Shown here: in pieces, positions 1-3,931 of the stretch
How positions within the stretch are numbered: the stretch's first letter is position 1
Layout: the number at the start of each line of letters is the position of its first letter
DNA from: Sphingomonadales bacterium 32-65-25
Lineage (GTDB): Bacteria; Pseudomonadota; Alphaproteobacteria; Sphingomonadales; Sphingomonadaceae
DNA length: 64,000 nt
NCBI GenBank assembly: GCA_002280855.1
Contig: NCEU01000005.1
Span: 1 to 64,000, forward strand
Direction: 5' to 3'
Made by a program: the position numbers and the translations under genes
The notes under the pieces: generated by a model
Told to the model about the DNA's origin: nothing
Databases searched by the model: none
What the model saw: only the letters and a program-made list of their open reading frames with translations

Positions 1-1060
1 AACCTCGATCCTGATACCCGTGCGCATCCCGATCCATCGCACGCCCAGGCATCAGTGGGAATCCCAAAAGGGACTCATCCGTCTCAATCAATCCACTAGA
101 AACAATATGGTTCCACTTCGATTGAGCCCCACGCATCAATTTTTGGTCGTCAATTGAGTTCCAAGATTTTCCGTCCCCAAGCTTCACTCTTATTCGCTCG
201 TTGGTCATATCCAAAAGAGACGCGCTGTCCCATTCGAGAAAAACAGCTGACGACTGAGAAATCTTATTTTTATCGGAAAAATTCAATTCATCCCAAAGAT
301 CGGTTCTTATATAAAATACAGGAAATATGGTATTTCCTTCGCGTCCACTTCGAATTGACCTGATAGCAAGTACCAAGCCGATCAGCATTTCTTTTCGTTT
401 ATTATCAAACTTTGCAAGACCTTGGTCCAATTCATCAAAATGCAAGGCTATGTGCTGCACACCGGCCTGACCCGCGAGAACTACAGCGTTACTCAAAAGA
501 CTGTGTGTTAGCGCGTCCACCTCCTGAGAAATTCCCCCTTCACCGGAACCCATTTCAATGCTTCCAACAGAATTTCCCATTATGCTTGGAGAAAAAATCC
601 TCTTGGTAACTTTCAATTTCGCGGGCTGGAGAATCTGCGCTAGAGAAGGAGTAATTCCGCCATAATTATCGTTCAAAAAATCACGCGCAGCCCTCTGCGC
701 GTCGGTCATGAGCCTCATTCCTTTCTGCTCAAGTATGATAGAATTGGCCTTTACTGCGATTAAATATCGCCAGCTGCTTACGTAACTCTCAATATCTGAC
801 GCACCTAAGTTTCTTCGTGTCGCATGTAAGTTCCATGGATAATCTCTAAGCGTGGGAGAGCTTGAAACATAATCCCTCTTTGCTTGAGAAAAATACTTCG
901 TAAGAGCAGTCTTTCCTGAACCCTTTCTACCAATGACTGCGTAGCATGATCCGGATGCAATCCGATCCACTGCAGCTGTTTTCAGGAAATACGACAACAC
1001 TGCGTCGTCGTCTTCGGCTGCAACATCACCAAAGGTACCGATTTGCAGCAGTTGGCCCAT
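1..1060 (-). CDS. P-loop ATPase of unknown function (3' end outside window)
   Basis: Reading the minus strand from ATG at 1060 gives 353 codons open to the window edge. Upstream of the ATG is GGGGAG, a good ribosome binding site. Walker A is AVIGRKGSGKTAL (about residues 40-52). A Walker B-like segment is IALHFDELDQG (about 207-217), and a later stretch FLEWDSASLLDMTNERI resembles the lid region of STAND/AAA-type ATPases. This layout resembles uncharacterised P-loop ATPases of the Sll1717 type, some of which sit in defence or mobile regions; the family assignment is from memory. The coding sequence is much richer in AT than its neighbours (hand counts 19/60, 23/60 and 25/60 GC on three lines, against 41/60 at 2281-2340), which suggests transfer. 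The partner gene, if any, would lie to the left. Confidence 0.75.
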   Translation of the reverse strand, partial: MGQLLQIGTFGDVAAEDDDAVLSYFLKTAAVDRIASGSCYAVIGRKGSGKTALTKYFSQAKRDYVSSSPTLRDYPWNLHATRRNLGASDIESYVSSWRYLIAVKANSIILEQKGMRLMTDAQRAARDFLNDNYGGITPSLAQILQPAKLKVTKRIFSPSIMGNSVGSIEMGSGEGGISQEVDALTHSLLSNAVVLAGQAGVQHIALHFDELDQGLAKFDNKRKEMLIGLVLAIRSIRSGREGNTIFPVFYIRTDLWDELNFSDKNKISQSSAVFLEWDSASLLDMTNERIRVKLGDGKSWNSIDDQKLMRGAQSKWNHIVSSGLIETDESLLGFPLMPGRAMDRDAHGYQDRG

Positions 1061-1180: not shown

Positions 1181-1398
1181 AAACAAACGGGTGCAGGGAC
1201 TGCGTCCCTGCCCGCCGGAGGCTCCCTTCCCTCCCTTGGAGCAGAGCGCACATCGGGACGCTGTCCTACAGGGCGCTGGCGGCATTATACTCGGCGTCCG
1301 GCCCACCCGGATGTTCTTTCCACGATTGATCTTATCCAGACGCGCACGCGCATGTGGAAGAATCTGTAACCTTTGCAACCTACAGCGGCGGCAAGGGC
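1181..1398. repeat. 218-bp direct repeat, copy A
   Basis: This block aligns without gaps to 1471-1688, at a constant offset of 290 bp and with about 19 mismatches. Inside it, 1193-1211 is a perfect hairpin (GCAGGGAC, loop TGC, GTCCCTGC). The end carries TGTAACCTTTGCAACC, a degenerate pair of heptamers. The GC level is close to that of the host chromosome rather than of the neighbouring ATPase gene. It resembles dispersed intergenic repeats of sphingomonads, but that cannot be checked here. Confidence 0.9.
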
Positions 1399-1470: not shown

Positions 1471-1688
1471 AAACAAACGGGTGCAGGGACTGCGTCCCTG
1501 CCCGCCGGAGGCTCTCTTCTCTCTCTCGTTGCAGAGCGCAAATCGCGAAGCTGTCCTACAGGGCGCTGGCGGCTTCATGCTCGGCGTCTAGCCCGCCCGG
1601 ATGCTCTTTCCACGATTGATCTTGTCCAGACGCGCACGCGCATGTGGAAGAATCTGTAACCTTTGTAACCTACAGCGGCGGCAGGGGC
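1471..1688. repeat. 218-bp direct repeat, copy B
   Basis: This is the second copy of the block at 1181-1398. The hairpin is conserved at 1483-1501. The heptamer pair here is perfect: TGTAACC, two bases, TGTAACC (1655-1670). The 72-bp spacer between the two copies (1399-1470) is not clearly related to the sequence before copy A, apart from the last ten or so bases, so this is a duplication of the block only. Confidence 0.9.
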
Positions 1689-1695
1689 GTGCAGT

Positions 1696-2691
1696 TCAGG
1701 GCTGCAGGGCGCCATCGTGATGCCGCCACAGCTGCACGGCGAAGCGGCCGGCGCTGTCGGTCCAGGCGTGCAGTGGCGCCCAGCCGCTGGCATGGGCCAT
1801 CAGCCGGATTTCAGGCGGCGTCCATTTGTGGCTGTTTTCGGTGTGGATGGTTTCACCTGCGGTCAGGCGGAATGTCTGCCCGGCGGCGGTGAAGGTCGTA
1901 TCGCGGCGGGCGACCAGGTGCATTTCGATGCGGCCGAGATCGGCGTTCCAGGTGGCGCGGTGGGCAAAGTCGTCCACGCGCAAGGTGCCGCCCAGTTCGC
2001 GGTTGATGCGGTGCAGCAGGTTGCAGTTGAAGGCGGCGGTGACGCCGGCGGCATCATCATAGGCGGCTTCCAGCGTGGCCACGGATTTGCCGGCGCCCGG
2101 CGCCAGATCGAAGCCGATCACCAGCCAGCTTTCCGGCCCGAGCAGGCCGGCAAAGCCGCGCAGCAGATCGATGGCGGCGCCGGGTGCCAGATTGCCGATG
2201 GTGGAGCCGGGGAAAAACCCCAGCTTTGGCAGCGCGGCCACCCGCGCCGGCAGCGCAAAGCTGCGGGTGAAATCAGCGGCCACCGGCAAAATCGGCAGAT
2301 CGGGGAACTGCACGGCCAGGGCGGCGGCCGACTGGTTCAGAAATTCGCCCGAAATGTCCACCGGCACATAGGCCGCCGCATGCAGTGGCCGCAGCAGCAG
2401 CGGGGTTTTCGCCGATGAACCCGATCCGAATTCCACCACCGCCTGCCCTGGCCCGACCGCCGCCGCAATGGCCGCGGCATGGTCGGCCAGGATCGCGGCT
2501 TCGGTGCGGGTGGGATAATATTCGGGCAGTTGCGTGATCGCTTCAAACAGCGCCGATCCGGCTTCATCATAGAAAAACCGGGCCGGAATGACCTTTTGCG
2601 ATTGGGCCAGCCCGGTCAGCACGGCCCGTTCGAAGGCGTCAGCAGCATCTGGGACAACGCCCGGTCCTGCAGCTTCATACATGTCAGGCAT
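1696..2691 (-). CDS. egtD: L-histidine N(alpha)-methyltransferase EgtD
   Basis: This SAM-dependent enzyme trimethylates histidine to hercynine, the first step of ergothioneine synthesis in the cytosol. Recognisable segments are PARFFYDEAGSALFEAI near the N-terminus, the SAM-binding EFGSGSSAKT, FFPGSTIGN, and the C-terminal HTENSHKWTP. With the ATG at 2691 the protein is 331 residues, the usual size for EgtD; a longer frame to 2772 exists but would overlap egtB deeply. The start overlaps the egtB stop codon (2684-2686) by eight bases, so the two genes are almost certainly co-transcribed and translationally coupled. Confidence 0.93.
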   Translation of the reverse strand: MPDMYEAAGPGVVPDAADAFERAVLTGLAQSQKVIPARFFYDEAGSALFEAITQLPEYYPTRTEAAILADHAAAIAAAVGPGQAVVEFGSGSSAKTPLLLRPLHAAAYVPVDISGEFLNQSAAALAVQFPDLPILPVAADFTRSFALPARVAALPKLGFFPGSTIGNLAPGAAIDLLRGFAGLLGPESWLVIGFDLAPGAGKSVATLEAAYDDAAGVTAAFNCNLLHRINRELGGTLRVDDFAHRATWNADLGRIEMHLVARRDTTFTAAGQTFRLTAGETIHTENSHKWTPPEIRLMAHASGWAPLHAWTDSAGRFAVQLWRHHDGALQP

Positions 2692-3931
2692 CCCTTGCGA
2701 GGCGCAGGCCGGTGAATTGCCAGCGTTGATGGGCTGCGAAGAAATTGCGCACGCTGGCCCGCGAACTGCCACGCGGCGTGGCGCAGCTGGCGCCTTTCAG
2801 CACCATCTGCCCGCTCATGAACTTGCCGTTATACTCGCCCACCGCGCCGGGTGCCGGGCGGAAGCCGGGGTGGGGCAGAAAGGCTGAGGCCGTCCATTGC
2901 CAGCAATCGCCGAAAAGCCCTGCGCTTGCGCCCGTCGGCTGCACGGCCGCCGCGCTGTCCAGCTGGTTGCCGGCTGCAGCGTCATGATTCTGCGCTGCCA
3001 CCTCCCATTCTGCTTCGGTGGGGAGGCGTGCCTCGGCCCAGGTGGCAAAGGCGTCGGCTTCATAATGGCTGATGTGCGTTACCGGCGCGTGCGGTGCCAG
3101 CGGCTGCCGGCCGGCCAGTGTCATGCTGGTCCAGCCATCGGCGCCGGCCTGCCAGCGCAGCGGTGCGGTGATGCCATTACGCTGCACCCAGGCCCAGCCA
3201 TCGGACAGCCACAACCGCGGATCAGCATAGCCGCCATCAGCGATGAAGGCCTGCCATTCGGCGTTGGTCACCAGCGTGCTGGCCAGCTGGAACGGGCGCA
3301 GCAGCACGTCGTGGGCCGGCCCTTCGCAATCAAAGGCAAAATCGCTGCCCGCATGGCCGATCCGCACGATGCCGCCGGCATGATGTTCCCAGCTTCGGGC
3401 GCGCGCCGGCGGGCTGATGGGCGCCGCCGCCACATAGGCCGGTTCCAGCGGATTGGCAGCAAACAGATCAAGGATATCGGTCAGCAGCAATTCCTGATGC
3501 TGTTGTTCGTGATTGATGCCCAGTTCCACCAGCGCGAGCGCCGCCGGGTCCAGCTGCGGCAGTGCGGCCGCCAGCGCATCATCAACATGGCCGCGCCACG
3601 CCAGCACATCGGCCAGCGCCGGCCGCGTGAGCATGCCGCGCCGATCGCGTGCATGACGCGGGCCAACCGCTTCATAATAGCTGTTGAACAGAAAGGCGTG
3701 GCGTTCATCAAAAATGCGATAGCCCGGCACATTGGCCAGCACGAACGTTTCGAAAAACCAGGTGGTGTGCGCCATATGCCATTTTGCCGGCGAGGCATCG
3801 GGCATCGATTGCACACTGGCATCGGCATCCGACAACGTTGCCACCAGGGCCACAGTCAGGCTGCGCGTGCGCTGCAAGGCGGGCAGCAGGGACGCCGGAT
3901 CAGATATTGTGGTGCTTGTGTTGGTGGCCAT
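2684..3931 (-). CDS. egtB: Ergothioneine biosynthesis protein EgtB
   Basis: This non-haem iron sulfoxide synthase joins hercynine to a thiol (gamma-glutamylcysteine or cysteine) using oxygen. The 415-residue protein has an N-terminal DinB-like helical domain and a C-terminal formylglycine-generating-enzyme-like domain (from about residue 190). Likely iron ligands are the His in KWHMAHTTWFFE and the two His of NHEQQHQELLL. The start ATG at 3931 has GGAAGGG upstream. egtD follows with an overlap. egtA, egtC and egtE are not in the window, so thiol donor and lyase must be supplied from elsewhere. Confidence 0.93.
   Translation of the reverse strand: MATNTSTTISDPASLLPALQRTRSLTVALVATLSDADASVQSMPDASPAKWHMAHTTWFFETFVLANVPGYRIFDERHAFLFNSYYEAVGPRHARDRRGMLTRPALADVLAWRGHVDDALAAALPQLDPAALALVELGINHEQQHQELLLTDILDLFAANPLEPAYVAAAPISPPARARSWEHHAGGIVRIGHAGSDFAFDCEGPAHDVLLRPFQLASTLVTNAEWQAFIADGGYADPRLWLSDGWAWVQRNGITAPLRWQAGADGWTSMTLAGRQPLAPHAPVTHISHYEADAFATWAEARLPTEAEWEVAAQNHDAAAGNQLDSAAAVQPTGASAGLFGDCWQWTASAFLPHPGFRPAPGAVGEYNGKFMSGQMVLKGASCATPRGSSRASVRNFFAAHQRWQFTGLRLARDA

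Follow-up and report, generated by a model that had tools for sequence, protein, structure and literature searches.

We found that the gene at the left edge of a 64,000-nt stretch of sphingomonad DNA (the whole of which is called the window here; it begins at base 1 of contig C3 of genome G000) is a broken member of the Sll1717 family of P-loop ATPases (NCBIfam NF047389), split by an insertion sequence (IS). Our main reading, to which we give a probability of about 60%, is that a stand-alone Sll1717 AAA+ gene, probably defence-related, was acquired horizontally between lepA and egtD and was later broken by an IS630-type element.

The initial annotation, made from the letters of the window, had described an AT-rich, 353-residue P-loop ATPase with clear Walker motifs and no known function, lying beside a tandem repeat. 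The composition was confirmed, since positions 1 to 1000 of the window have a GC content of 0.450 and all the remaining 1-kb bins lie between 0.60 and 0.72. The codon usage comparison it had proposed agreed with this, the GC at third codon positions (GC3) being 0.425 in the N-terminal half of the ATPase gene and 0.377 in the C-terminal half (on contig C12), as against 0.758 in egtD and 0.738 in egtB. Both Walker motifs were also present (Walker A, GRKGSGKT; Walker B, IALHFDELDQ) and aligned with those of relatives, with V42, G44, K46, G47, G49, K50, D208 and D211 invariant in an alignment of 22 sequences. The tandem repeat is real and consists of a hairpin element together with the ~170 bp of DNA that follow it (1189-1393 and 1479-1690). 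On the other hand, the length had to be corrected. The open reading frame of 353 codons (2-1060, minus strand, open at the window edge) exists, but the gene is confined to about 97-1060 (320 codons) and the last 33 or so of the 353 residues come from translation of the IS, because positions 1 to 98 of the window are the end of an IS630-like element. As for function, none has indeed been assigned, but the family can be named. The N-terminal part of the protein matched NF047389 with 170.3 bits (cut-off, 75) over positions 1 to 309 of 454. The missing part of the profile (positions 311 to 452) has a single further match in the genome, likewise over the cut-off, which lies on the same strand at the right-hand end of C12; the RPRD motif is located in this half. 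The gene thus has the Walker, LRxDI, DKNK and RPRD motifs of the family and their order in common with it, while the copy in G000 is interrupted: the genome holds no full-length member in a single frame, the gene being divided by the IS. No function is given by the family name, and our literature search found no paper naming Sll1717. The family is widespread and has no known function, and the ATPase adds one more member to it. The interruption was hidden from the initial annotation. The features are listed in Table 1.

Table 1. Positions of the ATPase gene, the IS end, the hairpin elements and their neighbors; coordinates are those of the window unless another contig or locus is given.
Feature	Position	Strand	Basis or remark
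IS630-like element, left end	1..98	-	terminal inverted repeat of 13-14 bp at 86-99
First codons of IS transposase, MRTGIRIEV	27..1	-	same direction as the ATPase gene
TA in CTAG target of IS630-type insertion	97..98	.	one TA per junction
P-loop ATPase, Sll1717 family, 5' two thirds (320 codons)	97..1060	-	NF047389 profile match
Remaining 159 codons of the ATPase gene	~G000:C12:20010-20485	-	NF047389 positions 311-452, 97.3 bits
Hairpin element, inner copy, egtD side of the slot	1189..1222	+	element search
Hairpin element, second tandem copy, 290 bp further	1479..1512	+	element search
~170-bp sequence after each hairpin, present twice	1223-1393, 1513-1690	.	read from the sequence
EgtD-like methyltransferase, right border gene	1696..2772	-	by content; 94-97% identical in G107 and G407, same place
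EgtB-like protein, next conserved gene	2684..3931	-	by content
nrdB-linked Sll1717 genes	L020 8943-11443; L118, L124, L126, L127, L129, L130		same strand as nrdB

IS630-type elements insert at CTAG targets and duplicate the TA. We noted that the ends of C3 and C12 each carry ~98 terminal bases that start with a common inverted repeat, and both junctions read CTAGTGGATTGATT. The C3 end encodes the transposase start MRTGIRIEV, and the C12 end encodes the transposase C-terminus, PFVWRANPDEIIAAVKRGHQTLESIH followed by a stop. Only these two ends of the transposase were assembled locally, and each matches a 364-aa transposase of the relative G135 (DDE_3, PF13358; E 6e-18), which has the same MRTGIRIEV start. 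When the two flanks were joined with one TA, they gave 1440 nt with a frame of 479 codons and a terminal stop only, the intact relative being 480 aa long. Judged from these sequences, an IS630-type element has split the ATPase gene of G000 at a CTAG target, because the halves are complementary, the IS ends have an inverted repeat in common and the 479-codon frame is restored. The target, the TA duplication and the terminal inverted repeat are those of the IS630 family, and both assembled transposase ends match a DDE_3 transposase, whereas the middle of the copy at the ATPase locus is missing from the assembly. A single copy of the element would join C12 to C3, and the contig, and with it the window, ends at the ATPase gene because of this insertion. 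A third contig end, the start of C1, is identical to the IS end on C12 and has a different flank. Shared repeated sequences, e.g. GACAACTATCTTGGCCGGTTTACCGACAACTATGATGGCCGG, were also seen at ends of C9, C1, C4, C6 and C10, and these are probably other IS ends.

The ATPase 3' end is followed on the left by a hairpin repeat, beyond which lies lepA (identified by content). The initial annotation had left it to the DNA on this side to decide whether the gene belongs to a system; neither an integrase nor a partner gene was found there, and the left side consists instead of the IS, the remainder of the ATPase gene, and lepA. In three genomes of the same genus lepA and egtD are adjacent and convergent, as they are here. 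The gap between them in G107 is 250 bp long and empty, with one perfect hairpin (22-bp stem, -53.8 kcal/mol, z -11), while it contains the ATPase gene in G000, two membrane-like ORFs in G407 and a 329-aa ORF in G340. In the filled alleles the cargo lies between inverted copies of a ~43-nt hairpin repeat. The ~170-bp sequence that is repeated in G000 occurs as a single copy beside egtD in G107; the egtD-side hairpin itself is present twice in G000 and G340 and once in G107 and G407.

The gene is sparsely distributed. Members of the Sll1717 family over the cut-off were found in 21 of the 398 genomes of the host's taxonomic family and in none of the 10 same-genus genomes searched. Relatives were found on 13 plasmids and, with the alignment as the query, in 41 viral contigs or loci; a viral scan with one protein as the query retrieved none. 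The intact homologue of Qipengyuania vesicularis (480 residues) is 60% identical in the N-terminal part and 65% in the C-terminal part, and nearly all the sphingomonad relatives have a lower GC content than the DNA around them. That the ATPase gene was acquired horizontally, as the initial annotation had suggested, is well supported, because its presence is patchy, the orthologous site is empty or differently filled, and the relatives are GC-poor in GC-rich hosts. For the same reasons the finding named beforehand as speaking against transfer, a conserved orthologue of ordinary GC in the same place, was not obtained. Taken together, what the initial annotation observed was confirmed and its interpretation was partly supported, the claim of a defence-related gene being plausible, though indirectly, from the neighbors of plasmid relatives, the kind of cargo and the fold, but without a convincing match to a defence model.

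Of the roles considered, an anti-invader one appears the likeliest for the ATPase. Among the neighbors of the plasmid relatives are pifC together with a P-loop NTPase, AbiE together with a restriction enzyme, and DUF87/NurA alongside DUF262 genes. Among 65 proteins encoded near the sphingomonad relatives, there were single matches to the NucC, mad3, mad8 and PD-(D/E)XK models. The ATPase itself had no confident match in PADLOC-DB (mad8, E 0.011); when the relatives were searched, two matched PDC-M28C with 22-24 bits (E 1e-5 and 4e-6) and six further ones gave none. Neither an effector domain nor a partner gene was found for the ATPase. The protein bears a weak likeness around the P-loop to the anti-phage protein DS-41 (DefensePredictor, PMC13092281), matching NF053860 with 18.6 bits over residues 13 to 76, and is placed in a different family by the cut-off of 370.

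The fold was modelled on the intact Qipengyuania homologue, the input alignment comprising 22 sequences from the window and the loci (pLDDT 83, pTM 0.81). The best matches of the model were SSO1545 (2fna; Z 13.1 over 331 residues) and Orc/Cdc6 proteins (Z 12-13; 12.8 for 1w5t and 2qby); other matches were CED-4, plant NLRs, TnsC, MuB, RdrA (Z 10.6) and BrxC (E 7e-4). The global TM-scores given by Foldseek were low (<=0.4), i.e. the match is at the level of the fold class. The Sll1717 ATPase is predicted from this model to have an Orc/Cdc6-STAND AAA+ fold, and the residue pattern GRKGSGKT, DELD, LRxDI and RPRD fits an ATP-driven switch. The likeness to the Orc1/Cdc6-STAND proteins (SSO1545, archaeal Orc1/Cdc6, CED-4) extends over ~330 residues; at the level of sequence, however, there is marginal similarity (PF24389, 19.4 bits, cut-off 27; matches at the P-loop level only in a search of solved structures), and the relationship is known here from the predicted fold and not from origin binding. 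RdrA of RADAR and BrxC of BREX are defence AAA+ cores among the matches, but the ATPase gene, unlike theirs, stands alone, without RdrB or BREX partners.

We infer the following course of events. A stand-alone Sll1717 ATPase gene would have been acquired horizontally and inserted between lepA and egtD, where it would have occupied a slot between inverted hairpin repeats in which relatives carry other accessory genes. The intact protein would be an Orc/Cdc6-STAND switch, predicted to comprise an ATP-binding core, the RPRD motif and then a C-terminal domain, probably a winged helix. On sensing an invader or DNA, such a switch may oligomerise and thereby stop a phage or plasmid from propagating. 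The IS630-type element would have interrupted the gene later, and the protein is probably inactive in G000, because its core and its C-terminal part are kept apart by the IS.

The genomic context of the sphingomonad relatives led to a different explanation, in which the ATPase is not a defence protein but an Orc/Cdc6-like accessory of nucleotide metabolism or replication, co-expressed with ribonucleotide reductase and adjusting or sensing the dNTP supply. At seven sphingomonad loci nrdB is followed directly, on its own strand, by a Sll1717 gene, the gaps being -1 (an overlap, in Qipengyuania), 3, 5, 6, ~30 (a broken copy), 389 and 392 bases, and the closest folds, SSO1545 and Orc/Cdc6, would suit such a role. 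However, nrdB was found within ~1.5 kb of the gene at none of the 16 loci from the wider class, so linkage to nrdB was rejected as a feature of the family at large; the plasmid and viral-contig relatives have no adjacent nrdB, and the family is sparse. Since most of the nrdB-linked proteins resemble the Qipengyuania protein weakly, the arrangement suggests either one place that is repeatedly occupied or a functional connection with nucleotide supply, and for the dNTP explanation the weak similarity counts as a point against, looking like repeated occupation of a spot. On this balance we regard a role in dNTP supply as unlikely. The nrdB association is nevertheless one of the leads that the family offers, along with the Orc/Cdc6-STAND fold and the accessory distribution over plasmids, viral contigs and chromosomal slots. 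A literature search on anti-phage ATPases linked to nrdB brought up a preprint on nucleotide signals. Two genes, one from these loci and the nrdB of G000, are damaged or appear so. The G157 copy behind nrdB (L118 9123-10486; G157:C25) is broken into two frames and lies near a contig end, and nrdB of G000 (L215 1501-2459; G000:C7:270358 onward) seems to lack ~30 residues (197-226) and to change frame there, by damage or by assembly error.

It is less probable still that the ATPase serves a prophage or plasmid, as a target factor resembling TnsC or MuB or in superinfection exclusion, and is a chromosomal leftover. The viral and plasmid relatives mentioned above, some of which adjoin integrases, and the fold matches, which include TnsC and MuB, agree with this, whereas the lepA-egtD slot contains no transposase or integrase other than the IS within the gene, and in prophage-like loci the relative, judged by eye, stands alone, GC-poor and surrounded by structural genes, as cargo would be. 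We also asked whether the split and the window edge could be assembly artefacts, with an intact gene and misjoined IS ends, the break being at contig ends and there being no sequence or read across the IS. We consider this highly improbable, since the two ends are different, correctly oriented ends of one IS630-type element with the TA duplicated at the CTAG target, the second copy of an end, on C1, has its own flank, and repeats of this kind typically stop short-read contigs. An acquired Sll1717 gene, broken by the IS and probably concerned with defence, is the reading that we prefer.

The lepA-egtD site resembles the minimal mobile elements of Neisseria, in which conserved genes flank a gap with strain-specific whole-gene cassettes (PMC3898611); here, too, conserved flanks enclose different whole-gene cassettes in different strains, and variable cassettes, common restriction cargo and a terminator-like repeat are features of both. 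In contrast to Neisseria, the cassettes are bracketed by inverted ~43-nt hairpins and the empty alleles keep one perfect hairpin. There is no integrase in the slot, and the inverted repeats leave routes besides homologous recombination open. The hairpin element has a consensus close to GCCTCCGGCGGGCAGGG-N7-CCCTGCACCCGTTTGTTTT and resembles an intrinsic terminator when read inward from the left flank. A search for its core (<=3 mismatches) gave 60 copies in the genome and none with the reversed control. Covariation at the outermost loop pair runs through all four Watson-Crick pairs (TA 20, GC 16, AT 12, CG 6; also GT 1), which suggests that the hairpin is under selection.

In the genome stretches examined we counted 23 facing pairs, of which 14 have interiors of 30-231 bp and 9 interiors of 479-2045 bp; the interiors of the nine longer pairs have a GC content of 50-59%, below that of most of the flanking DNA. 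A rough call from coding scores made 13 of the 23 pairs convergent, which would suit two convergent terminators, yet 3 were ++, 3 -- and 4 -+, so convergent terminators do not explain all the pairs. Dispersed palindromes in inverted pairs, many 30-231 bp apart, are also what defines REPINs, paired REP palindromes moved by RAYT, and the 23 pairs in these stretches have this form. RAYT (PF01797), however, was found in one of 24 genomes of the genus and not in G000, and a RAYT-mobilised REPIN was rejected as the explanation for that reason. Also in contrast to REPINs, some of the hairpin pairs enclose 0.5-4.5 kb with genes, and we recognised no paper on REPIN cargo of such a kind in a literature search judged by titles.

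We consider the hairpin-bracketed slots more interesting than the ATPase and offer them as a lead. Tentatively, the inverted pairs of ~43-nt hairpins at many intergenic sites may be sockets for GC-poor, often anti-phage genes that are swapped between strains throughout the genus, an empty socket collapsing to one perfect 22-bp hairpin and the hairpins, not an integrase, mediating gain and loss. The cargo that could be named under this doubtful proposal would comprise a type IIG restriction-modification enzyme, Mrr, a DNA methyltransferase, PDC-M48B and the Sll1717 ATPase. If hairpin pairs are generic accessory-gene sockets in the genus, a simple pattern search would map defence genes outside classical islands. 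At many sites in the G000 stretches L096-L115 and in L091-L093 and L184-L193, such pairs flank GC-poor accessory genes, several of which are restriction or defence genes, and the content varies among close relatives. At a second site, G107 and G407 alike have an empty allele with a single hairpin. Where G000 has the cargo named below, relatives carry other genes: in G407 a type IIG restriction-methyltransferase and an usher with a chaperone; in G107 an Mrr-like enzyme, a MerB-like protein and a SUKH protein; and in G340 a Sel1 protein. The hairpin pairs of G000 enclose a DNA methyltransferase, an MBL protein, a GIY-YIG protein and an NTF2-fold immunity protein. The MBL-fold protein (L101 5231-6735; G000:C2) matched the PADLOC model PDC-M48B with an E of 6e-105, and the protein beside it matches Csx27 weakly (E 8e-4).
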